This document shows, one piece after another, positions 5,620 through 57,588 of a DNA stretch of 64,000 nt; the stretch's first letter is position 1, and the number at the start of each line of letters is the position of its first letter. A program made the translations under genes and the position numbers. Location of the stretch: NCBI RefSeq assembly GCF_003674065.1, contig NZ_RDBE01000006.1, forward strand, positions 124,001 through 188,000. Reading direction: 5' to 3'. Below the pieces are notes generated by a model, which saw only the letters and a list, made by a program, of their open reading frames with translations, did no database searches and had not been told where the DNA came from. Source of the DNA: Nocardioides mangrovicus. Lineage in GTDB: Bacteria > Actinomycetota > Actinomycetes > Propionibacteriales > Nocardioidaceae.

Positions 5620-6732
5620 TTATGTACCGAACCTGGCGCCGTAGTCGGCCAGCCGCAGCCGCTTGGTGCCCGGCACCCGCACGAGGCGGGCGATGTGCAT
5701 CCGACGCTGCGCGCACCCGCTGGGCTGGGTGAGGCAGGTGGTGGTCGTCGGGTAGCCGATGTTGCCCGGCGTCCAGGCGTGGTAGGCCATCCGCAGCAGT
5801 CCGTGGGCGTCGACGAACGGCGACTCGCCGCCGGGCCCGGAGATGGTCGCGGAGTTGCGCATCAGCGGGTAGCGCGTGAGCCGCTTGCACTTGGTGACCA
5901 TCGAGGTGCACAGCGAGTAGCCGATGCGGTAACGGTCACTGGCCCAGTTGTTGGCCGAGTAGAACAGGTAGAGCCGCTTGCGCCAGACCACCATGGCCGG
6001 GTTCTCGATGACCCCGCCCTCCCAGGCCAGCTTCGGCTTGAGCAGCACCCGGGCCTTTGAGCGGTGCGCGAAGCCGGTGGCGTACTTGTTCAGCTGGCGC
6101 GACCAGATCTTCGGCGGCGTGCTGGCGTTGCCCTCGGTCTTGTAGAGCAGCCAGTTCTTGCCCTTGTAGCGGAACAGGGAGGGGTCGATCGCACCTTGGT
6201 GCGCCGGGCAGACGAGCGGACCGGCGCTGGTGTCGGTGAACGGGCCCCAGGGCGAACCGGCGCGAGCGGTCGAGATGCAGTAACGGCTGTGGTCGGCCAG
6301 CTGGGTGGCGTACGCCGCGACGTAGCGGCCCTGGATGCGCGCCACCGACGGCGCCCAGACCGGCGACTTGCGGTGCCCGTTGACCACGGTGTTCTGGCTG
6401 GCCCAGACCGGGCTGTCGGGCAGCGCGTCGTTGTCGGTGGCCGAGCCCGCGGTGTAGCTGGGACGCGTGGTCCAGATCGAGAGGTCGTGAGAGGTCAGGA
6501 GCGGCAGGTTGATGTTCGCCGTCGTGGTCGAGTAGGCGAAATAGGTCGAGCCGATGCGCAGGACGGTGGGGTCGGGGAAGTCACCGGTGTACGGCGTGCC
6601 CGCGGTGAACGGGTCGCTGCCCTTCGGGTTCGGCTTGTGATCGACCGCCTGCGCCGCCGGCAGCGTCGAGGCCGTCAGCGCCGCGGCCAGCAGCCCCGTC
6701 ACGAGCGCGACCCGTCGTACCCCGTGCCTCAT
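5620..6732 (-). CDS. Secreted glycoside hydrolase family 43-like enzyme (copy 2)
   Basis: A 370-aa secreted paralog of the next gene downstream. The signal peptide ends LPAAQA-VD at about residue 30; GGGAG-type Shine-Dalgarno bases sit 7 nt before the ATG. Catalytic candidates mirror copy 1: Asp54 in DFPDPT, Asp in AIDPSLF, Glu in WEGGVIENP. Both proteins end in the same MAYxAWxxGxxGYP...ARL pattern, so they come from one duplication and probably act on related arabino- or xylo-polysaccharides. The 130-bp gap between them may carry a second promoter. Confidence 0.8.
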   Translation of the reverse strand: MRHGVRRVALVTGLLAAALTASTLPAAQAVDHKPNPKGSDPFTAGTPYTGDFPDPTVLRIGSTYFAYSTTTANINLPLLTSHDLSIWTTRPSYTAGSATDNDALPDSPVWASQNTVVNGHRKSPVWAPSVARIQGRYVAAYATQLADHSRYCISTARAGSPWGPFTDTSAGPLVCPAHQGAIDPSLFRYKGKNWLLYKTEGNASTPPKIWSRQLNKYATGFAHRSKARVLLKPKLAWEGGVIENPAMVVWRKRLYLFYSANNWASDRYRIGYSLCTSMVTKCKRLTRYPLMRNSATISGPGGESPFVDAHGLLRMAYHAWTPGNIGYPTTTTCLTQPSGCAQRRMHIARLVRVPGTKRLRLADYGARFGT

Positions 6733-6798
6733 CGTTCACTCCCGTCACCCGAGGACTTCGGGGAAGGGTAACCCAGCAGGAGTTCCGGCGGATCCGGT

Positions 6799-8091
6799 TC
6801 AGCCGTTCCAGGTCGGCCGCAGCCCGAAGTCGGCCGCGCCCCCGGGGTGGTCCTTGACCGCCAGCACCTGGTGCAGCTCGATCTCGTCGATGTCGAAGGC
6901 GAACCGCGAGCCGGCCATGTAGAGCCCCCACACCCGAGCGGTGCCCTCGCCGACCTCGGCGACGCACTCGTCCCAGTTCGCCACCAGGTTGCGGCACCAG
7001 TCGCGCAGCGTCATCGCGTAGTGCTCGCGCAGGTTCTCCTCGTGGCGTACCTCCAGGCCGTGGTCCTGGATCGCGCTGACGATGGTGCCGACGCCGGTGA
7101 GCTCGCCGTCGGGGAAGACGTAGCGGTCGATGAACGCCCCGGTGTTCTTCGGACGGTTGTCCTGGCGGGTGATGCAGTGGTTGAGCAGCCGGCCGCCGGG
7201 ACGCAGCTTGTCGCGCAGGACCGAGAAGTAGGCCGGGTAGTTCTTCACGCCGATGTGCTCGGTGAGGCCGATCGAGCTGATCGCGTCGAAGTCGCCCTCG
7301 GGGACGTCGCGGTAGTCCATGAAGCGCACCTCGGCCAGGTGGTCGAGCCCCTCGCGCTTGATCGCCTCCTGCGCCCACTCGGCCTGCTCCTGCGACAGCG
7401 TGACGCCGAGCGCCTTGACGCCGTACTTGCGCGCGGCGTGGCGCACCATGCCGCCCCAGCCGCAGCCGACGTCGAGCAGCCGGTCGCCCTCGTGCAGTCC
7501 GAGCTTGCGCGCGACCAGGTCGTACTTGAAGCCCTGGGCCTCCTCCAACGTCGCGTCGATCGTCGGGTAGCAGGCGCACGTGTAGGTCATCGAGGGACCG
7601 AGCACCAGCTCGTAGAACCGGTTGGAGACGTCGTAGTGGTGGTGGATGGCCTCGGCGTCGCGGGCCTGGGAGTGCCGCATGCCTTCCACCAGCCGGCGCC
7701 AGCGCGGCAGGTGCTCCTGCGGGGGCACCGGCGGCGGGTTGAGGTTCGACAGTCCGACCGAGCGCAGCATCCGCAGCACGTCGGTGGCCGGCGGCATCTG
7801 GAAGTGCGTGTGCTCCTTGATGCGCGCCATCGCCTCGTAGGGGTCGCCGGGGTGGACGCCGGAGATCTCCAGGTCGCCCATCACGTACGCCCGCGCCAGG
7901 CCGAGGTCGCCGGGGGCGGTGAGCAGGTAGCGCAGCCCGCGCTCGTTGGCCAGGTGGGCCTTGATCGGGGAATCCTGCGGGCCCGCCGAGCTGCCGTCGT
8001 AGGCGGTGAACGCGATCGGGAAGCCGCCCTTGAGCAGGGAGTCGAGCATCTGCCCGATGCTCATCGCCGAGGTTCCGTCCAGCAGGGTCAT
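6799..8091 (-). CDS. tmsB: CFA-synthase-family fatty acid methyltransferase, TmsB-like
   Basis: A 430-aa S-adenosylmethionine methyltransferase. Motif I LLDVGCGWGG lies at about residues 205-214, preceded by the cyclopropane-synthase signature HHYDVSNRFY. The start overlaps the stop of a flavoprotein gene by 4 bp. In mycobacteria and relatives this pairing (methyltransferase plus FAD oxidoreductase) makes 10-methylstearate (tuberculostearate) from oleoyl phospholipids: TmsB adds a methylene group and TmsA reduces it. The pairing is the main reason for preferring TmsB over a plain cyclopropane synthase; sequence alone cannot exclude the latter. Confidence 0.75.
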   Translation of the reverse strand: MTLLDGTSAMSIGQMLDSLLKGGFPIAFTAYDGSSAGPQDSPIKAHLANERGLRYLLTAPGDLGLARAYVMGDLEISGVHPGDPYEAMARIKEHTHFQMPPATDVLRMLRSVGLSNLNPPPVPPQEHLPRWRRLVEGMRHSQARDAEAIHHHYDVSNRFYELVLGPSMTYTCACYPTIDATLEEAQGFKYDLVARKLGLHEGDRLLDVGCGWGGMVRHAARKYGVKALGVTLSQEQAEWAQEAIKREGLDHLAEVRFMDYRDVPEGDFDAISSIGLTEHIGVKNYPAYFSVLRDKLRPGGRLLNHCITRQDNRPKNTGAFIDRYVFPDGELTGVGTIVSAIQDHGLEVRHEENLREHYAMTLRDWCRNLVANWDECVAEVGEGTARVWGLYMAGSRFAFDIDEIELHQVLAVKDHPGGAADFGLRPTWNG

Positions 8092-9464
8092 CCGCGTCGC
8101 ACCGCCTTGTCGTAGAGGGAGGGGAACCGCCCGGCCGGGTCGTAGCGACCCTTCACGGCGGCCAGGTTGGCGCCGTCGTAGAGCCGGTCGAAGGTCTCGG
8201 GGTCGTAGAAGGCCTCGGAGTACAGGGACTTGTGGCCGCCCAGGTCGTGCACCTCGGCCTCGATCGCGCGGTTGCGCGGGGCGTCGTCGGCCTCGGGGCC
8301 CACGTGGACGGTGCCCCAGAACCCTGCGTTGACGTAGGTACGGCCGCGCTCCAGCGGGTAGGTGGGCCACGTGGTCTCGCCGCGCAACCGCAGCGGGCAC
8401 AGCCACACCGGGCGCATCCCGACGTGCTCGTCGAACCAGGCCAGGAACTCCCCCAGCCGCTCGACGGGGACCTCGATGTCCTGCACCACGCGCTCGCGCC
8501 GCGGCCGGCCGGCGCGGCGGTCGAGCCGGTCGGCGATGTCGAAGCGCTGGTCCAGGCCCAGCAGCCGGTGGTAGACGTCGCTGCGCCGCCAGCGCCGCGG
8601 CCACACCCGGCGCAGGTAGGGGTTCTGCGCGCCGAACGCGCCGGAGCACCAGAACCAGTCGGTGTCCCAGCGCCACAGGTAGTCGTACGGCGTGAGGAGG
8701 TCGCTCTCGCGCTCGCGGATGCTGCGGAAGTAGATCTGCTGGCCGGCGTAGTCGCTGGTGGGTGCGCCGTCGCGCGCGGGCAGCCAGGTGGCCAGCGTCA
8801 GGTACGCCTCGCCCGGCTCGAAGGCGACGCCGTCCATGCCGTCGACGTGCTGGCCGTCGTACTCGCCGGTCTCGACGATCTGCTCGATCGTCTTGCCCAG
8901 CAGGCCGATGTCGTCGAACCGCACGTGACGCAGCCCCACCAGCGCGCCGATCGGCTCCAGCTCGATGCGCAGCCGGGTGGCGTAGCCGAGCGAGCCGTAG
9001 GAGTTCGGGAAGGTGGCGAACAGGTCGGCGTGCTCGTTCGTGGCGGTGGCCGTGACCACCTCGCCGGTGCCGGTGAACACGTCCATCTCCAGCACCGACT
9101 CGTGCGGCAGGCCGTTGCGGAAGCTGGTGGACTCGATGCCCAGGCCGGTGACCGCGCCGCCGAGGGTGATGGTGCGCAGCTGCGGCACCACCAGCGGGAT
9201 CAGCCCGTGCTCGAGGGTGACGTCGCACAGGTCCTCGTAGGTGCACATGCCCTGCACGTCGGCCGTGCGGTTCGCGGCGTCGACGCTGATGACCCCGGCG
9301 AGCCCTGCGACGTCGAGGCCGGGAGCGTCGCTGTCGGCCCGCGGCCGGAACAGGTTCGAGGTCCGCTTCGCCAGCCGCACCCGGCGCTCGGCCGGGATCG
9401 CGGCGTAGGAGGCGCTGAGTCGTTCGACCGCGCGGTCGTGCGCCTGCTGCCCGACGAGCCCCAT
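8088..9464 (-). CDS. tmsA: FAD-binding oxidoreductase, TmsA-like
   Basis: A 458-aa flavoprotein with a PCMH-type FAD domain in the first third (GVISVDAANRTADVQG, then LRTITLGGAVTGLGIE around residues 95-112). The rest resembles the sterol-reductase/DprE-like oxidoreductases. It is translationally coupled to the downstream methyltransferase, the arrangement known for tuberculostearate synthesis, where the flavoprotein uses NAD(P)H to reduce the 10-methylene intermediate. The gene starts 27 bp after the stop-side neighbour encoding the cytidine-deaminase-like protein, so the three probably form one operon. Confidence 0.75.
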   Translation of the reverse strand: MGLVGQQAHDRAVERLSASYAAIPAERRVRLAKRTSNLFRPRADSDAPGLDVAGLAGVISVDAANRTADVQGMCTYEDLCDVTLEHGLIPLVVPQLRTITLGGAVTGLGIESTSFRNGLPHESVLEMDVFTGTGEVVTATATNEHADLFATFPNSYGSLGYATRLRIELEPIGALVGLRHVRFDDIGLLGKTIEQIVETGEYDGQHVDGMDGVAFEPGEAYLTLATWLPARDGAPTSDYAGQQIYFRSIRERESDLLTPYDYLWRWDTDWFWCSGAFGAQNPYLRRVWPRRWRRSDVYHRLLGLDQRFDIADRLDRRAGRPRRERVVQDIEVPVERLGEFLAWFDEHVGMRPVWLCPLRLRGETTWPTYPLERGRTYVNAGFWGTVHVGPEADDAPRNRAIEAEVHDLGGHKSLYSEAFYDPETFDRLYDGANLAAVKGRYDPAGRFPSLYDKAVRRG

Positions 9465-9491
9465 ACCCGCAGGCTATAACTCCTCGCGCCC

Positions 9492-9836
9492 TCAGGTGGA
9501 GAGGGTCTCCGCCACACTCCCGCGGGGGTCTGCTCGGTGCACAGCGACGCCCTCGCCGCCGAGATCGCGCACCGCCGCCAGGTCGTTCTCGGCCACGGCG
9601 TCGGCGTCGGTGAGCACCACCACCGCCTCCACCCCCGCAGCCCCCGAGGCCACGGCCATCGCCAGCGCCACGCCCACCGCGCTGACCTGCAGGTGCGCCA
9701 AGTCGACCGTCGCCGCGGCGTACGTGCGCCCGTCGAGGTCGCGCAGCGCCGCCCCCTCCGCCGCCTGCGTCCGCGCCCGAGTCGCCCGGGCCAACGTCAC
9801 CAGCTTCTGATCCTCGGGGTCGCTCAGCTCGGGCAC
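9492..9836 (-). CDS. Cytidine-deaminase-like protein lacking zinc ligands
   Basis: A 114-aa protein that resembles the small cytidine-deaminase-fold proteins found near era in actinobacteria (LDGRTYAAATVDL followed by a helical ALAMAVASGA). It contains no cysteine at all, so the catalytic H/C-A-E...P-C-x-x-C zinc site is absent; I infer it is not an active deaminase. I chose GTG 9836 because a GTG at 9866 would place the start inside a 21-bp hairpin. It lies between the ClC gene and tmsA. Function unknown. Confidence 0.6.
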   Translation of the reverse strand: MPELSDPEDQKLVTLARATRARTQAAEGAALRDLDGRTYAAATVDLAHLQVSAVGVALAMAVASGAAGVEAVVVLTDADAVAENDLAAVRDLGGEGVAVHRADPRGSVAETLST

Positions 9837-9846
9837 GCCGCGAGGG

Positions 9847-9906
9847 TAGTCCAGACCGAGTAGCACCAGTGCGCAGGCCGAGATCGGTGCTACTCGGTCT
9901 GGACTA
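9847..9906. terminator. 21-bp perfect inverted repeat (probable terminator or operator)
   Basis: Arms 9847-9867 and 9886-9906 are perfectly complementary over 21 bp, with an 18-nt loop. The arms begin TAGTCC and end GGACTA. The element follows the ClC stop codon by 5 bp and precedes the cytidine-deaminase-like gene. It would form a very stable RNA hairpin, but no T-tract follows on either strand. A similar long hairpin with TAGTC ends lies at 11761-11819. Confidence 0.65.
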
Positions 9907-9911
9907 GGCGC

Positions 9912-11279
9912 TCAGGCGGTGGCGGGGAGGTCGCTGGGCTGCTCGAGATCGATGCCACGGCGCAACAGCTTGCGGGTGTAGACGGTGTCGGCGGAGACGA
10001 GGTGGCTGGCGCCGGTGGCCAGCACGATGGCCAGCATCATCGGCAAGATGATCGAGTACTCGCCGGTCAGCTCGAAGAGGATGACGACCGCCGTGACCGG
10101 GGCGCGCGCGGCGCCGGCGAACACGGCTCCCATCCCGATCAGCGCGTACGCCCCCGCCGGGCCGGCGCCTGGGTCGACGGCGTGCACCAGCTCACCGAAG
10201 GCCGCGCCGAGCATCGCCCCGCAGAACAGGCTGGGCGCGAAGACGCCGCCGGAGCCGCCGATGCCGATCGTGAGGCTGCAGGCGAGCATCTTGCCGGCCA
10301 GCAGCACGAGAAGGAAGCCCACCGCGTAGCGACCGTCGACGGCGTCGCCCAGCACCGGGTACCCCACCCCGTACAGCTGCGGCAGCGCCAGCAGCACCAC
10401 GCCGAGCGCGAGCCCGCCGACGCCCGGACGCAGCCACTCGGGGCCGCGGGTGCGGTGCCAGATCCAGTCGCAGACGTCTTCGACGAGGTAGAGGAACCGT
10501 GAGAAGCAGACGCCCACCACGCCCGCCACGACACCGAGTACCGCGACGAGCGCGTACTGCGTCAGGTGGGTGACCTCGAAGCCCGGCAGGGACAGGAACG
10601 GCTCGTCGCCGAGCACCGCTCGGCCGGTGACGCTGGCCGTGACCGAGGAGACGGCCACCATCCCGAACGACTCGGCGTTCCAGCGACGCAGCACCAGCTC
10701 CATCGCGAAGAAGACGCCGGCCAGCGGGGCGTTGAACGTGGCGGCGATCCCGCCGGCGGCCCCGCAGGCGACGAGCAGGCGAAGCCGCGCGGTGTCGAGC
10801 CGGAGCATCTGACCGAGTGAGGACCCCAGTGCCGACCCGATCTGGACGATCGGACCCTCCCGGCCCACCGAGCCGCCGCCGCCGATGCACAGGGCGCTGG
10901 CCAGCGACTTCACCAGCGCGACCTGCGGGCGGATACGGCCACCGTTGCGGGCTACGGCGAGCATCACCTCGGGCACGCCGTGGCCACGGGCCTCGGGCGC
11001 GAAGCGCGTGACCAGCGGCCCGTAGACCAGCCCCGCCACCACCGGCGCGACCAGCACGAAGAAGGGGCCCAGCCACGGCACCAGCGGGTTGGCGGAGTGG
11101 CCGGCGCCGGCGTAGTCGGCGTGCCCGGAGAGCAGTCGGGTGAGCCCCAGGACCAGGTAGCGGAACACGATCGCGCCGGCGCCGGCACCGAGGCCGACCA
11201 GCAGCGCGAGCAGCAGCAGCCGGACCTGCCCCGGGCCGACGCTGCGGACGTGACGGACCTTCGTGGGGATGCGATGCAC
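9912..11279 (-). CDS. ClC-family chloride channel/transporter
   Basis: A 455-aa polytopic membrane protein. The ClC signature GGGGSVGREGP (gating Glu at about residue 141), the later GSGGVFAPSL and the G-(M)-GAVFAGAARAP motif are all present. In an eye alignment with the E. coli antiporter, the internal proton-transfer Glu pair in FIIEEM appears here as FFAMEL, so only one Glu is kept. No cytoplasmic CBS domains. GTG 11279 is preferred over TTG 11294, because the latter lies inside a repeat that looks like the operator shared with the divergent MarR gene. Anion homeostasis is the likely role. Confidence 0.88.
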   Translation of the reverse strand: MHRIPTKVRHVRSVGPGQVRLLLLALLVGLGAGAGAIVFRYLVLGLTRLLSGHADYAGAGHSANPLVPWLGPFFVLVAPVVAGLVYGPLVTRFAPEARGHGVPEVMLAVARNGGRIRPQVALVKSLASALCIGGGGSVGREGPIVQIGSALGSSLGQMLRLDTARLRLLVACGAAGGIAATFNAPLAGVFFAMELVLRRWNAESFGMVAVSSVTASVTGRAVLGDEPFLSLPGFEVTHLTQYALVAVLGVVAGVVGVCFSRFLYLVEDVCDWIWHRTRGPEWLRPGVGGLALGVVLLALPQLYGVGYPVLGDAVDGRYAVGFLLVLLAGKMLACSLTIGIGGSGGVFAPSLFCGAMLGAAFGELVHAVDPGAGPAGAYALIGMGAVFAGAARAPVTAVVILFELTGEYSIILPMMLAIVLATGASHLVSADTVYTRKLLRRGIDLEQPSDLPATA

Positions 11280-11281
11280 GC

Positions 11282-11311
11282 TTGCAGTATGCAACAGTTG
11301 CAGCTATGCAA
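11282..11311. promoter_or_regulatory. Putative MarR operator: two TTGCA-N-TGCAA palindromes
   Basis: Two imperfect copies of one palindrome, TTGCAGTATGCAA (11282-11294) and TTGCAGCTATGCAA (11298-11311), lie between the divergent ClC and marR-like genes. TTGCA/TGCAA half sites are a common MarR recognition form. The second copy overlaps the marR start codon, so binding would block both promoters or translation starts (inference). Confidence 0.6.
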
Positions 11312-11740
11312 GCGAATCAGCATGAGGCGGTCGACGCCCTGCTCGACGCCTCACGCGCTCTGGTGGCGGTCTCGGCCCGCTCGATCGCGGACTCGACGTC
11401 GATGACGCTCCCCCAGTTCCGGATGCTCGTCGTGCTCACCGACGGGCCACGCCGACTGGTCGACCTCGCCGCGGCACTGGACGTCGTCCCCTCCACCGCA
11501 GCCCGGATGGTCGACCGGCTCGAGGAGGCGGGCCTGGTCGACCGCAGCATCCCGCCCGAGAACCGCCGCGAGACCCGGCTGGCCCTGACCCCGGCCGGCA
11601 AGCGCATCGTGACCAAGATCAGCAACCGCCGTCGCCGCGACCTGACCGCCGTCGTCGAACGCCTCACCGAGGAGCAGACCGCCGAGCTCACCCGGTCGAT
11701 GCGGCTGTTCGCCGACATCGCGGCCGAGCTGTGGTCGTGA
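11306..11740 (+). CDS. MarR-family transcriptional regulator
   Basis: A 144-aa winged-helix repressor: N-terminal dimer helix, then the DNA-binding helix-turn-helix LVDLAAALDVVPSTAARMVDRLEEAGLV at about residues 51-78, and the wing with ENRRETRLALTPAG. The ATG at 11306 is chosen; TTG 11282 would lie in the operator. It is divergent from the ClC gene with 26 bp between starts and probably represses itself and that transporter. The inducing ligand is not evident. Confidence 0.85.
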   Translation: MQANQHEAVDALLDASRALVAVSARSIADSTSMTLPQFRMLVVLTDGPRRLVDLAAALDVVPSTAARMVDRLEEAGLVDRSIPPENRRETRLALTPAGKRIVTKISNRRRRDLTAVVERLTEEQTAELTRSMRLFADIAAELWS

Positions 11741-11760
11741 GGCCGCCCCGCCCGGCGGCG

Positions 11761-11819
11761 TAGTCCGAGACGAAATGGCTGTCGATCGGCCTGATCGACA
11801 GCCATTTCGTCTCTGACTA
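11761..11819. terminator. Bidirectional hairpin terminator with 27-bp stem
   Basis: Arms 11761-11787 and 11793-11819 pair over 27 positions with one mismatch (11766/11814) around a 5-nt loop; the inner 21 bp are perfect (GAGACGAAATGGC...). The element lies between convergent marR-like and DUF1801 genes, and its right end includes the stop codon of the latter. It has no T-tract, but the stem is long and symmetric enough to act in both directions. Confidence 0.7.
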
Positions 11820-12254
11820 TCCCGCCACGGCGCGCTTGACCAGTTTCTCCAGCTCCGCCAGGACGGCCTCCGAGGTGCTGGTGACGGCGTACTCGGTGGG
11901 CCACAGGTCGCCGTCGTCGAGGGAGGCGGTGTCGTTGAAGCCGAAGGTGGAGTAGCGGGCACCGAACTTGGCGGAGTGCTTGTAGAAGCAGACCACCTTG
12001 TCTGCAGCGTTCGCGTAGGCCGGCATCCCGTACCAGGTCTTCGGGCGCAGGCCCTGGGCGACGTCGGTGACGATGGCGTGGATGCGCTCGCCGATGGCGC
12101 GGTCGAGGCCCTCCATCTTCTCGATCGCCTCGAGGCAGGCCTCGGCCTCCTCGGCCTTCTTCTTCCCGCCGCGGCCGGAGGACTGCAGCTCCTCGGTGCG
12201 CGCCTTCATGGCCTCGCGCTCCTCGGCGGTGAACCCGGACTTGCTGCTGGGCAT
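11817..12254 (-). CDS. DUF1801-type (YdhG-like) protein
   Basis: A 145-aa cytosolic protein. The core IVTDVAQGLRPKTWYGMPAY and VVCFYKHSAKFGARYSTFGF match the DUF1801/YdhG fold, some members of which are described as iron chaperones. A charged, Lys/Glu-rich N-terminal third (residues 1-45) precedes it. The stop codon is embedded in the terminator hairpin shared with marR. The gene probably has its own promoter in the 52-bp gap before corC. Function in this organism unknown. Confidence 0.72.
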   Translation of the reverse strand: MPSSKSGFTAEEREAMKARTEELQSSGRGGKKKAEEAEACLEAIEKMEGLDRAIGERIHAIVTDVAQGLRPKTWYGMPAYANAADKVVCFYKHSAKFGARYSTFGFNDTASLDDGDLWPTEYAVTSTSEAVLAELEKLVKRAVAG

Positions 12255-12306
12255 CGTGACTCCTGTCGGTGGGTGCGTCGTGTCGTGAGGATGACGTGCG
12301 AGGTCG

Positions 12307-13608
12307 TCAGGATGTGACAGGGCGGATCGACACCGTGCCGATCCGGTTGCGACGGCCGGCGGCCTGCTCGGCCTCGAAGATCAGGCCGTCGATGACCACG
12401 ATCGAGCCGGGGATCGGCACCTTGCCCAGGTGCTTGGCCATCAGACCTCCCACCGAGTCGATCTCGTCGTCGACGATCCGCACCCCCACGACGTCCTCGA
12501 GGTCGTCGACCGGGAAGCGCGAGGGCAGCCGCACGGTGCCGTCCGGCAGCCGCTCGACCTCCTCGGCGGCCGGGTCGTACTCGTCGACGATCTCGCCGAC
12601 GATCTCCTCCAAGATGTCCTCGATGGTCACCACGCCCGCGGTGCCGCCGTACTCGTCGACCACGACGGCGATGTGGCGACGGTCGGCCTGCATCTCGCGC
12701 AGCAGGTCGTCGACCGGCTTGGTGTCGGGCACCCACAGCACCGGCCGCATCACCGACTCGACCTTCTCCTTGGCCTCGGCCTCGTGCCGGTCGAAGACCC
12801 GGCGCGAGAGGTCCTTGAGGTAGGCGAAGCCGACCACGTCGTCCAGGTCGTCCTCGACGACCGGGATCCGGGAGTAGCCGCTGCGCAGCAGCAGCGACAT
12901 CGCCTGCCGCAGCGTCTTCGTGCGCTCGATGTAGACGACGTCGGTGCGCGGCACCATCACCTCGCGGGCGATGGTGTCGCCGAGCTCGAAGACCGACTGG
13001 ATCATCCGCTGCTCGCCGACCTCCACCAGCCCCGAGGCCTCGGCCAGGTCGACCAGCTCGCGCAGCTCGGCCTCGGAGGCGAACGGGCCCTCGCGGAAGC
13101 CTCGGCCGGGCGTGAGGGCGTTGCCGATGAGGATGAGCAGCCGCGGTACCGGTCCCAGCACCCGGGTCAGCCAGATCAGGGCGCCGGCCGAGAGCAGCGC
13201 GACGGTCTCCGCGTGCTGGCGGCCCAGCGTGCGGGGCGCGACCCCGATGAAGACGAACGAGATGACGAGCATGACGGCGATGGAGACCACCACCGACGGC
13301 CAGCGGTGGGTGACGACGCTGGTCTCGTCGCCGCGGATCGAGCCCAGCAGGTCGAAGACGACGGCGGTGGCCAGCACGACGGCGCTGGTCTCGGCCAGCA
13401 GCCGCAGCAGCAGCAGCGTGGCCATCACCCGGGGCGGGTCGTCGACCACGGCCAGCAGCGCCCGCGAGCCCGGTCGCTTCTCCTCGGCCAGCTCGCTCGC
13501 CCGGGCGCGCGAGAAGCTCGACAGCGCGGCCTCGGCGCTGCTGAGGAGCCCGGCCACCACCACCAGTCCCACGACCAGGACCAGCAACCACAGGTTCTGC
13601 GCGGTCAC
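12307..13608 (-). CDS. CorC/HlyC-type CNNM transporter-like protein with CBS pair
   Basis: A 433-aa protein: DUF21/CNNM membrane domain with about four hydrophobic segments in residues 1-165, two CBS domains (MVPRTDVVYIERT and SVMRPVLWVPDTKPV), and a C-terminal CorC_HlyC transporter-associated domain ending near residue 425. CNNM proteins are linked to Mg2+ efflux or homeostasis. The GTG start lies 1 bp before the ybeY stop side, and ybeY-corC-phoH clustering is conserved in actinobacteria, so co-transcription is likely. Confidence 0.88.
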   Translation of the reverse strand: MTAQNLWLLVLVVGLVVVAGLLSSAEAALSSFSRARASELAEEKRPGSRALLAVVDDPPRVMATLLLLRLLAETSAVVLATAVVFDLLGSIRGDETSVVTHRWPSVVVSIAVMLVISFVFIGVAPRTLGRQHAETVALLSAGALIWLTRVLGPVPRLLILIGNALTPGRGFREGPFASEAELRELVDLAEASGLVEVGEQRMIQSVFELGDTIAREVMVPRTDVVYIERTKTLRQAMSLLLRSGYSRIPVVEDDLDDVVGFAYLKDLSRRVFDRHEAEAKEKVESVMRPVLWVPDTKPVDDLLREMQADRRHIAVVVDEYGGTAGVVTIEDILEEIVGEIVDEYDPAAEEVERLPDGTVRLPSRFPVDDLEDVVGVRIVDDEIDSVGGLMAKHLGKVPIPGSIVVIDGLIFEAEQAAGRRNRIGTVSIRPVTS

Positions 13609-53359: not shown

Positions 53360-54037
53360 GTGCGCAAGCTCCTCGTCGCGGTCGTCGTCCTGCTGGTGCT
53401 GGTCGCCGCGGCCGACCGGGTGGCGGTCTTCGCCGCCGACCACGTCGTGGCGAGCCGGATCAGGACCACGCAGCAGCTGACGAGCGACCCGACGGTCGAC
53501 ATCCGGGGCTTCCCGTTCCTGACCCAGTTCGCCTCCGGTCGCTACGCGCACGTGACCGCCACGGCCAGCGAGGTGCCGGTCGCCGAGACCGGGCTAAAGC
53601 TGAGCCGGCTCGACCTGAGCTTCCGCGACGTCACCGCGAGCCGCGACTTCCGCACCTTCACCGCACGGGCCGGTCGCGCCACCGCCGTGATCTCCTACAC
53701 CGACCTCGGTGCGGCGCTCGGCGTCACTCTGGGCTACGCCGGCGACGGACGCATCCGGGTCACCAAGACCTTCACCGTCGGCGGCGCGACGCTGAAGCCG
53801 TCGGCCACCGTGACGCCGCGCCTGAGCGGCGAGGTGCTCACCTTCGCCGACGCCACCATCAACGGCGTCGGCGAGCTGCCCGCCGCCGTGCAGGCCGTGC
53901 TGCGGCAGGCCTTCGGCAAGCGACTGGACCTCTCCGGACTGCCCTTCGACGTCCGGGTGAAGCGACTGGCGGTCTCCGACGCCGGGATCACGCTGACGCT
54001 CTCGGGCACCGGGCTGCGTTACACCGGCTCGTCCTAG
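53360..54037 (+). CDS. DUF2993 exported/anchored protein (copy A)
   Basis: A 225-aa protein with an N-terminal signal-anchor (residues 3-25) and the DUF2993 beta fold: VDIRGFPFLTQFASGRYAHVTA, LSGLPFDVRVKRLAV, ITLTLSGTGL. Function unknown; the fold suggests lipid binding. GTG start. Its 3' end overlaps the stop of the opposite-strand signal peptidase gene by 4 bp. A paralog lies on the far side of the SipW module. Confidence 0.8.
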   Translation: MRKLLVAVVVLLVLVAAADRVAVFAADHVVASRIRTTQQLTSDPTVDIRGFPFLTQFASGRYAHVTATASEVPVAETGLKLSRLDLSFRDVTASRDFRTFTARAGRATAVISYTDLGAALGVTLGYAGDGRIRVTKTFTVGGATLKPSATVTPRLSGEVLTFADATINGVGELPAAVQAVLRQAFGKRLDLSGLPFDVRVKRLAVSDAGITLTLSGTGLRYTGSS

Positions 54038-54618
54038 GAGCGCACCGGCCGCAGCAGGTCCTCCAGCGCGTTCGAGCGGGACCGCTGGCGCGGGATCCTG
54101 GGTCTGCGAGCCCGGGCCCGCGGTGCGCGAACCGGTGCGGGCGCGGGGAAGAACAGCCCCCACAGCAGCAGGGCCGACAGCACGCTGGTCAGCAGGGCAC
54201 CGATGCCCGCGGGCACCTGCAGGAAGCGTGCGACGTAGCCCATCGCGGGCAGACTGCCCACCGCGACGCCTCGCACCTGGTCCGGCGCGATCGTCCAGGC
54301 GTCGTCCGTCGCGTTGGCGTCGCCCTTGGTGGAGATGCCGGCCGCGGTGACCTTGACGATGCGGTGGGTGACCAGGTCGTCGTCGCCCTCGCCGTGGCTG
54401 AAGGTGATGACGCTGCCCACGGCGTAGGCCTCGTGACGCTTGATGAGCACCAGGTCGCCGCTGCGGTAGGTCGGCGTCATCGAGCCGGTATGCACGATGT
54501 AGGGCCGGTAGCCCGCGTGCCAGCCCAGACCGGCGTAGGTGAGCACGAAGCCCAGGCCGAACACCATCAGCACCTGGACGGCCCGTCTCGCCCAGAGCGC
54601 GCTGCCGGTCAGCACCAT
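54034..54618 (-). CDS. SipW-type signal peptidase I
   Basis: A 194-aa membrane protease. One N-terminal helix (residues 12-31), the catalytic Ser46 in TGSMTPTY, and His85 in DDLVTHRIV where ordinary bacterial LepB has Lys: the Ser-His arrangement of the SipW/archaeal/ER class. TKGDAN is the following conserved block. A second helix (about 138-157) and a basic C-terminal tail follow. It lies downstream of a TasA-like gene, its likely substrate, behind an intercistronic hairpin. Confidence 0.88.
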   Translation of the reverse strand: MVLTGSALWARRAVQVLMVFGLGFVLTYAGLGWHAGYRPYIVHTGSMTPTYRSGDLVLIKRHEAYAVGSVITFSHGEGDDDLVTHRIVKVTAAGISTKGDANATDDAWTIAPDQVRGVAVGSLPAMGYVARFLQVPAGIGALLTSVLSALLLWGLFFPAPAPVRAPRARARRPRIPRQRSRSNALEDLLRPVRS

Positions 54619-54640
54619 GTCGTCCCCCCTCCGCGGTGAC

Positions 54641-54670
54641 CCGTCGGCCGGGCCCGAGCCCGGCCGACGG
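54641..54670 (-). terminator. Intercistronic 13-bp hairpin between TasA-like and sipW-like genes
   Basis: CCGTCGGCCGGGC (54641-54653) and its exact complement (54658-54670) enclose CCGA. It begins 7 bp after the TasA-like stop. A stem this strong would attenuate read-through or protect the upstream mRNA, giving much more substrate than peptidase. Confidence 0.65.
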
Positions 54671-54676
54671 AGTGGC

Positions 54677-55345
54677 TCAGTTGTTGACGTCGTCGGGTCG
54701 GACGCCGTGCTGGGTCGCCACGATCTTGTAGGTCGCCAGCCTCGTGCTGGGCGCGCCCTGGGGGCCGGTCAGCAGCTTCGTGAACCCGAACTCCACGGTC
54801 GCGGTCTTGGTCGACCCGGACGGCAGTGCGCTGTAGAGCAGGATGGCGTGCGGTGCGCCGCACTCGGCGATCGGCGGTTGCGAGGCGCTCGTCGCCTCCT
54901 CGTTGCTGCCTCCCCAGCCCCTGCTGTCGACCTTGCAGTCGACACGGCCGGTGTCGTCGTAGCTACGGAGGTTGTTCGACACGAAGTGCGCGCCACCCTC
55001 GCTCGTGAGCTTGAAGTGGCCGTAGCGACCCAGAGCGTTCGAGCTCTGGTCCCCGGTCAGCGCCGACCCCGCGGGCATGACCATCCAGATGTCCTCCGGG
55101 GCAGTGCCGTCGTTGCGGAAGCTGACGGTCTGCGTCTTGTAGTCGCCGGGCAGGAGATCGCTGAAGTTCAGGGTGGTGCCACTGGGCGATGAGACCTTCA
55201 CACTGCCCGTGCTGGTGTTGATCGACCCGTCCTTGCTGTCGGTGAAGTACGCACCGGTGGTGTGCACGGCCGCACCCACGAGCGCTGCGGAGCAGCCGAG
55301 CGCTCCGATGAACCCGGCGAGCCGGGCGGTCCTGGACTTGTTCAC
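54677..55345 (-). CDS. TasA/camelysin-like secreted protein with SipW-dependent signal
   Basis: A 222-aa secreted protein. GTG 55345 has AGGGGAGA about 6 nt upstream. The signal peptide is hydrophobic at residues 8-30 and ends GAYFTDS (31-37), the hallmark of SipW substrates (TasA, CalY). The mature part is beta-rich, includes the DLLPGDYKTQTVSFRNDG segment typical of these proteins, and has two Cys that could pair. TasA forms biofilm fibres in Bacillus; fibre formation here is inferred only. Confidence 0.82.
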   Translation of the reverse strand: MNKSRTARLAGFIGALGCSAALVGAAVHTTGAYFTDSKDGSINTSTGSVKVSSPSGTTLNFSDLLPGDYKTQTVSFRNDGTAPEDIWMVMPAGSALTGDQSSNALGRYGHFKLTSEGGAHFVSNNLRSYDDTGRVDCKVDSRGWGGSNEEATSASQPPIAECGAPHAILLYSALPSGSTKTATVEFGFTKLLTGPQGAPSTRLATYKIVATQHGVRPDDVNN

Positions 55346-55411: not shown

Positions 55412-55433
55412 CGAAACCTCAGCGAAACCTCAG
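55412..55433. promoter_or_regulatory. 11-bp tandem direct repeat (candidate response-regulator site)
   Basis: CGAAACCTCAG occurs twice in immediate succession (55412-55422, 55423-55433). An 11-bp direct repeat equals about one helical turn and is the layout of OmpR/PhoB-family sites. It lies 67 bp upstream of the TasA-like gene. The 246-bp divergent gap (55346-55591) contains no gene. Confidence 0.45.
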
Positions 55434-55591: not shown

Positions 55592-56266
55592 GTGTCGAGG
55601 AAGTCGATCGTGGTCACGATCATCGTCGTCATCGTGCTGCTCGTGGCCGACGTCGCCGCTGCATCCGTGCAGAACCACAAGGCGGCCGACGCCTTCGTCG
55701 CCAGCCAGCACCTGCCCGCCAGCCCGTACGTGCACATCAACGGCTGGCCGTTCGTGCTGCAGGGCATCCGCGGCAGCTACCGCTACATCACGGTGCAGGC
55801 CGACCCCGCCCGCACCAGCGGCGACGCGGACCTCGACGTGCACCCCATGCGCCTCTCGCTGTACGGCGTCCACACGCACGGCGGGTTCGCCGACGCCACG
55901 GTCGAGCGCGCGACGGGCACGGCCCGGATCGGCTACCGAAGCCTGAGCAAGGGGCTCGGCAAGCGGGTGGTGTTCGCCGGCGCCGACCGGATCAGCGTCA
56001 CCTCGAAGACGACGGTCGACGGTCGCACCTACCGGCCCTCGGTCTCGGCCCGGCCCGAGGTCAGCGACGGCGCCCTGGTCTTCCATCAGGTGACGACCAC
56101 CGACCAGAAGGGCCTCCCGTCCGCGGACCTGAAGACCCTGGAGCAGATCTTCTCCGGTCGCTTCGAGCTGGGCCGGTTCCCGTTCGGCGTCCACCCGACG
56201 AAGGTGACGATGCTCCCCGAGGGCATGGTCTTCCGGGTCACCGGCCACGACCTGCGTCTCGGCTGA
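55592..56266 (+). CDS. DUF2993 exported/anchored protein (copy B)
   Basis: A 224-aa paralog of copy A: signal-anchor at residues 5-27, then VHINGWPFVLQGIRGSYRYITVQA and a C-terminal GRFPFGVHPTKVTMLPEGMVFRVTG, which line up with copy A. GTG 55592 is chosen over an ATG at 55553, which adds 13 polar residues ahead of the membrane helix. The stop overlaps the ATG of the SHMT-like gene by one base (TGATG). Confidence 0.78.
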   Translation: MSRKSIVVTIIVVIVLLVADVAAASVQNHKAADAFVASQHLPASPYVHINGWPFVLQGIRGSYRYITVQADPARTSGDADLDVHPMRLSLYGVHTHGGFADATVERATGTARIGYRSLSKGLGKRVVFAGADRISVTSKTTVDGRTYRPSVSARPEVSDGALVFHQVTTTDQKGLPSADLKTLEQIFSGRFELGRFPFGVHPTKVTMLPEGMVFRVTGHDLRLG

Positions 56267-57588
56267 TGCGCCTCTCGCCGCGGTCCTGGGTGCCGGCGGA
56301 CGTCGAGACCAAGGTCGGCGCGACAGCGTCGAGGGTCGCCGGTGCCGAGGACGCCGACGTGCTGGCGCTGCTCGACGGCCTGGTCGAGGAGAACCACCGC
56401 ATCCACGACGTCGAGTGCCTTAACCTCAACCCGGCCACGAACGTGATGAACCCGCGCGCCGAGGCGATGCTCTCCGCCGGGCTGGGCACGCGGGCGTCGC
56501 TGGGCTACCCCGGGGAGAAGTACGAGACCGGGCTGGAGGCGATCGAGGAGATCGAGTCGGTCGCGGCCGCGCTGGTGGCCGAGGTGTTCGATGCCGGATT
56601 CGCCGAGGTCCGGGTGCCCTCGGGCGCGATCGCCAACCTGTACGCGTTCCTGGCCACCTGCCGGCCCGGCGACACCATCGTCGCGCCGCCGGCGACGATC
56701 GGCGGTCACGTCACCCACCACACCGCCGGCGCCGCGGGGCTCTACGGCCTCGAGGTGGTGCCGGCGCCGGTGTCGGCCGACGGTTACACCGTCGACGTCG
56801 AGGCGCTGCGCGAGCTCGTGCACCGCGTGCAGCCGGCGCTGATCACCGTCGGTGGCAGCCTCAACCTTTTCCCGCACCCGGTGGCCGAGGTGCGCCAGGT
56901 GGCCGACGAGGTGGGCGCCCGGGTGCTCTTCGACGCCGCCCACCTGTGCGGGATGGTGGCCGGCGGCAGCTGGCCGCACCCGCTGCGCGAGGGTGCCGAC
57001 CTGATGACCATGAGCACCTACAAGAGCCTCGGCGGCCCCGCCGGCGGACTGGTCGTGACCGACGATCCCGACCTGGCCGAGCGGATCGACCAGATCGCCT
57101 ACCCCGGTCTCACCGCCAACTTCGACGCCGGCCGGGTGGCCGCCCTGGCGGTGACGATGCTCGACTGGCGCGCCCACGGCCGGGCGTACGCCGCGGCCAT
57201 GGTGGCCAACGCCGCGGCCCTCGCCGCGGCTCTGACCGAGCTCGGCGTGCCCCTCTTCGCCGCCGCGCGCGGCGCCACCCGGTCGCACCAGCTCGCGGTG
57301 CTCGCCGCCCGCTACGGCGGGGGGCAGACTGCGGCCCGACGCCTGCGCCGGGCCAACCTGCTGGCTTGCGGCATCGGCCTCCCGGTGGCGGCGGACCTGC
57401 TGGTGAATGGAGACCTGGCCGGCCTGCGCCTGGGCACCCCGGAGATCACGCGCCTGGGCATGGGCCCCGACGACATGCCCACGCTGGCCGGCTTCATCGC
57501 CCGCGGACTCGGCGACGACCCGGAGTCCGTCGCGCCGGAGGTCACCGCCTGGCGCAGCGGGTTCTCAGGCGTGCACTTCACGGTCTGA
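56266..57588 (+). CDS. PLP-dependent SHMT-family enzyme
   Basis: A 440-aa fold-type I PLP protein resembling serine hydroxymethyltransferase: NLNPATNVMNPRAEAML, GYPGEKYETG, LFDAAHLCGMVAGG, and the Schiff-base lysine in MSTYKSLGGPAGG. In SHMT the motif is usually TTTHKTLRGPRGG; here His and Arg are changed, so a related amino-acid or carbon-unit activity is possible. It is coupled to DUF2993 copy B. A repeat pair follows before leuS. Confidence 0.82.
   Translation: MRLSPRSWVPADVETKVGATASRVAGAEDADVLALLDGLVEENHRIHDVECLNLNPATNVMNPRAEAMLSAGLGTRASLGYPGEKYETGLEAIEEIESVAAALVAEVFDAGFAEVRVPSGAIANLYAFLATCRPGDTIVAPPATIGGHVTHHTAGAAGLYGLEVVPAPVSADGYTVDVEALRELVHRVQPALITVGGSLNLFPHPVAEVRQVADEVGARVLFDAAHLCGMVAGGSWPHPLREGADLMTMSTYKSLGGPAGGLVVTDDPDLAERIDQIAYPGLTANFDAGRVAALAVTMLDWRAHGRAYAAAMVANAAALAAALTELGVPLFAAARGATRSHQLAVLAARYGGGQTAARRLRRANLLACGIGLPVAADLLVNGDLAGLRLGTPEITRLGMGPDDMPTLAGFIARGLGDDPESVAPEVTAWRSGFSGVHFTV

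Follow-up and report, generated by a model that had tools for sequence, protein, structure and literature searches.

A stretch of 64,000 nt from Nocardioides mangrovicus (assembly GCF_003674065.1, contig NZ_RDBE01000006.1, positions 124,001–188,000, forward strand), referred to here as the window, carries on its minus strand an exported substrate gene, a hairpin and a signal peptidase gene, in this order. The substrate gene (54677–55345, minus strand) is supported by its open reading frame, by profile searches and by 16 actinomycete family members, and the intercistronic hairpin (54641–54670, minus strand) by its inverted repeat, by folding and by comparison of 16 loci. The leader of the peptidase gene with its RBS (54619–54640, minus strand) was read from the sequence, and the ER-type (S26B, Ser-His-Asp) signal peptidase gene (54034–54618, minus strand) was assigned by the TIGR02228 model, an alignment with SEC11 and its place in a clade (99/87). 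A first-pass annotation of this DNA had proposed a compact SipW/TasA-like secretion module made of these parts, and every element was found on the minus strand. It had also counted only one substrate and no sortase or anchor. The latter holds for the locus as read. For the former, the family profile (at E values up to 10) and PF12389 were each run against the whole genome, and 54677–55345 was the only match, with no second recognizable substrate of the same kind. TIGR02228, too, had a single match above its cut-off in the whole genome.

On each side of the cassette, on the opposite strand, lies one of two LmeA-like (PF11209) paralogues with about 31% identity (53360–54037 and 55595–56266, both plus). 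The first of them, lmeA1, shares 4 nt with the 3' end of the peptidase gene. Upstream of the substrate start, by about 70–90 nt, the 11-bp CTGAGGTTTCG (coding strand) occurs twice head-to-tail (55412–55433, minus strand). This tandem repeat has one match in the window against 0.01 expected by chance and is absent upstream of the remaining family members. It is a candidate regulator site, and copies placed one helix turn apart would be in keeping with a regulator of the OmpR/PhoB type.

The substrate is a protein of 222 aa, with a GTG start preceded by AGGGGAGA. It has a SipW-type signal, which is short, hydrophobic and ends in TTGAYFTDS about 30 residues from the start; the GAYFTDS-type signal reported earlier is therefore present, and cleavage is predicted at ALVGAAVHTTGA^YFTDS. 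The C-terminus carries the YKIVATQHGVRP motif, which is common to the family. The camelysin/TasA model PF12389 (Peptidase_M73) scored 20.2–20.5 bits, below its gathering cut-off of 22.5, and the substrate gene was its sole match in the whole genome. The TasA equivalog NF046066 gave 18.3 bits against a cut-off of 450, neither TIGR04088 (SipW-dependent signal domain) nor TIGR04089 matched at E 0.1, and no model of NCBIfam or Pfam reached its cut-off on this protein. The similarity to TasA/camelysin is weak and confined to the N-terminal half, the sequence beyond residue 90 being mostly without a known relative. By hand alignment, the mature N-terminus has the TasA spacing, F-x-D then G-x-[LVI]-x-[LVI].

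As to the jelly-roll fold of the camelysin/TasA family, AlphaFold gave poor models both times (pLDDT 44 and 38) with the sequences of the window substrate and of the homologue in Lacisediminihabitans (L003). Foldseek against 350,542 PDB chains returned the TasA fibre 8aur as a best but weak match (E 5e-3, TM 0.36), and a profile search of solved structures found TasA at E 0.28. A search of plasmids for TasA relatives found nothing. The earlier term TasA-like is thus reasonable, while identity as TasA does not stand, as the protein falls below every curated cut-off; what survives of the earlier interpretation is a SipW-type peptidase with a dedicated adjoining substrate and a positionally conserved hairpin. 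The best reading from these comparisons is that the substrate is a TasA/CalY-like exported subunit, and by analogy the formation of fibres is plausible. The protein could instead be a soluble secreted or surface protein, which we regard as quite possible though not the favoured case: there is no confident fold, and most of the chain past residue 90 lacks a known relative, against which stand the TasA/CalY-like N-terminal half seen in several weak searches and the absence of a visible HExxH zinc motif from the sequence.

The peptidase, a SipW-like protein of 194 aa with an ATG start, has hydrophobic segments at either end. It scored 71.4 bits with TIGR02228 (cut-off 51.85) and 60.5 bits with the Bacillus SipW equivalog NF046067, whose cut-off is 190, so that it belongs to the former and falls short of the latter. 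The catalytic residues are Ser46 (in GSM), His85 (in THR) and Asp100 (in KGDAN). They align with those of human SEC11A/SEC11C, which makes the enzyme of the Ser-His(-Asp) and not the Ser-Lys type, and they are invariant across three members compared. The Ser-His catalytic pair of SipW that had been read from the sequence at first is borne out by the SEC11 alignment and TIGR02228. The adjoining peptidase probably cuts the substrate.

The substrate family was collected with a three-row and then a seven-row profile. Its 16 members come from at least six families of actinomycetes. The curated libraries have no model of it, and it is rare: it was found in 2 of 24 genomes of the genus, in about 1% of the class sample and in 8 of 250 genomes in the family of G378. 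The members share a GAYFSD-type signal, LLPG, LGxYG, FxSxNL, a C-terminal YKIVATQHG and partly conserved cysteines, and the only curated models to match them at E 0.01 or better were TasA and PF12389 (4 of 16 members each). The peptidase gene follows the substrate gene in all 16 loci. The other neighbours vary by locus, except among close relatives and for a kinase-regulator pair in two loci, and a conserved operon partner other than the peptidase was rejected, as none recurs across the loci. In those two loci, which belong to different families, a histidine kinase and a LuxR-type response regulator lie beside the cassette on opposite sides (L122, 6221–8526; L126, 10472–12585). In a tree of 79 peptidases, the 16 group together as a single clade (99/87), and the SipW-type peptidases sampled from the window's own family fall outside it. 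Given the invariant gene order and the single peptidase clade, substrate and peptidase are most likely a dedicated pair that has been inherited together.

In a congener (G028, L174) the corresponding region (6227–13340) has a reductase, a desaturase, lmeA1, two other genes and leuS. It lacks the cassette as well as lmeA2 and the SHMT-like gene found at 56266–57588 in the window, which indicates that the cassette was gained or lost locally. The low GC content (67.4% vs 72.2%) and the low codon adaptation of the substrate would fit a foreign origin, though they are only suggestive.

Between the two genes, the 13-bp perfect hairpin noticed earlier was found with arms at 54641–54653 and 54658–54670, 100% complementary around a loop of 4 nt. 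It starts 6 nt past the substrate stop and ends about 21–22 nt ahead of the peptidase start, and the intergenic gap folds at -40 kcal/mol. In the window the MFE z-score is modest (-1.3 to -2.1, for a single sequence in a GC-rich context), so selection is not proven by the window alone and support comes from the comparative test. The hairpin tail is TCACCGCG, without the U-tract that follows the stem of a Rho-independent terminator; the hairpin is also not among the terminator-like sites found, and Rfam gave no match. Masking of the RBS by the hairpin was rejected, as the purine-rich RBS of the peptidase leader (GGAGGGGGG) lies outside the stem. That the peptidase of the window has its own promoter was also rejected, since the roughly 21 nt between hairpin and start leave no room for one.

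The 100 nt downstream of the substrate stop were scanned for hairpins in the 16 members, and 86 co-directional gaps of 50–130 nt from four member genomes, with simple gene calling, served as controls. A strong stem-loop reached a score of at least 31 in 15 of 16 members and at least 36 in 14 of 16 (mean MFE z -3.7 over all 16), compared with 16 of 86 control gaps (19%) at 31 and 15% at 36. The difference between 15/16 and 16/86 gives a Fisher p of about 1e-8, a value that overstates independence because the members are related. Among other SipW cassettes in the window's bacterial family with gaps of 45–160 nt, 23 of 32 have a hairpin (p about 1e-7, to be read with the same caution), and those with close gaps are mostly without one. 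The stems in the members mostly begin about 10 nt past the stop and end a median of 32 nt from the peptidase start. Position and pairing are kept, whereas the stem sequence mostly is not, apart from some close relatives that share it; the stems of L055 and L057 differ, by eye, in one compensatory pair, T-A to C-G. Such positional conservation is expected if the hairpin has a function.

These comparisons bear on whether the hairpin could be incidental. In such genomes stops are often followed by strong GC-rich palindromes, about 19% of comparable gaps have one, and the window z-score is modest, so a hairpin with no effect on the ratio of the two products could be envisaged. This is improbable, since a hairpin is present in 15 of the 16 members and in 23 of the 32 other SipW cassettes, with sequences mostly unlike between families. 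As actinobacterial relatives keep this order and almost all have a hairpin, the hairpin is probably not due to chance, and the arrangement is real and probably functional. That the palindrome is instead a protein-binding DNA site is very improbable: a perfect inverted repeat may serve as an operator, yet members that differ in sequence have retained the pairing and the place (typically about 10 nt after the stop), and the palindrome follows the first gene and is itself followed by no promoter. A second member from the window's genus (G060; L051, ~2107) has a substrate stop that overlaps the peptidase start and shows no clear hairpin, so the hairpin is not essential; this locus offers a natural comparison for its role.

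Taken together, the locus is probably a self-contained export cassette, in which a subunit is encoded with its private peptidase and the hairpin reduces the amount of peptidase mRNA compared with that of the substrate. A single promoter ahead of the substrate gene would give one mRNA for both genes. The substrate would enter the Sec route by its SipW-type signal and be cut by the adjoining ER-type peptidase, probably right before YFTDS. The released mature protein, presumably beta-rich with a TasA/CalY-like N-terminal half, would most likely assemble outside the cell, as TasA forms fibres (PMC9674648) and the SipW-dependent BsaA of Clostridium perfringens polymerises (PMC7395162). The hairpin would act in the RNA, either by blocking 3'-to-5' decay or by partly stopping transcription, and the hairpin of malE and other intercistronic hairpins with a protective role likewise lack a U-tract (PMC5927463). 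The outcome would be more substrate than peptidase mRNA and hence many subunits and few enzyme molecules. An excess of substrate brought about by the hairpin would agree with the first-pass prediction. Codon use gives no support to it: as an expression proxy, codon adaptation gave the substrate no advantage (10 of 16 loci, p 0.45) and is poor for both genes in the window.

The same excess could arise by another mechanism, if the hairpin, though it lacks a U-tract, works as a partial intrinsic terminator (attenuator) and readthrough provides the peptidase. We consider this a real possibility, though less likely than the cassette as set out above. Two members (L053 and L054) have CTTTTC tails, which would suit an attenuator. 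None of the 15 hairpin tails has five or more T in eight, which speaks against one. The work of Czyz et al. in 2014 reportedly found that the mycobacterial polymerase needs a U-tract, which would speak against it. On the other side, terminators without a U-trail in Mycobacterium tuberculosis, Streptomyces and phage phiC31 are cited in PMC8355165, and a predicted terminator with readthrough lies past the fibre gene in the sipW-bsaA region of C. perfringens (PMC7395162).

The SipW-type system itself is not rare in actinobacteria; the rare part is the substrate family of the window. TIGR02228 is above its cut-off in 127 of 198 genomes of the window's family, with up to 8 matches per genome. These peptidases usually have a secreted-looking partner directly upstream, and the three typical partners tested in relatives all match TIGR04089. 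SipW/TasA export has been studied mainly in Bacillota, and no paper on an actinobacterial version was found in the literature searched. The design is already known, but the sources searched seem to hold no description of this substrate family, of the peptidase clade that goes with it or of the recurring hairpin. A wider proposal, which we hold to be somewhat unlikely, is that the members are a donor-strand fibre family of actinobacteria, undescribed in the curated libraries searched, each made by a two-gene cassette whose positionally conserved hairpin, lacking a U-tract, sets how much subunit is made relative to its private peptidase; the same RNA device would recur in TIGR04089 cassettes and so be a general rule of actinobacterial SipW export. 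If the cassette reading is right, this would be a very small export unit of this kind, with one subunit and one peptidase; its family would be one that curated libraries lack, and there would be a simple rule, open to testing, for keeping subunit and enzyme in proportion.

Compared with the tapA-sipW-tasA operon of Bacillus subtilis, the cassette likewise has a dedicated SipW-type peptidase adjoining a TasA-like substrate, but the substrate comes first, the peptidase second, and TapA is absent. The C-terminal half of the substrate is unrelated by sequence to that of TasA and has partly conserved cysteines and the YKIVATQHG tail. The sipW-bsaABCRSD operon of C. perfringens also encodes a SipW-dependent secreted protein, there a polymer, with a step in expression after the fibre gene (PMC7395162); its peptidase gene comes first, and it has several more genes and a two-component system. 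The actinobacterial cassettes of TIGR04089 (exp_by_SipW_III) resemble that of the window in having a substrate directly upstream of a SipW-type peptidase and a frequent hairpin at gaps of 45–160 nt, whereas their substrate family and peptidase clade are different. Finally, the hairpins of malE-malF and puf are stable, lack a U-tract and follow a gene needed in excess (PMC5927463), and by analogy the hairpin of the window may play a comparable role.
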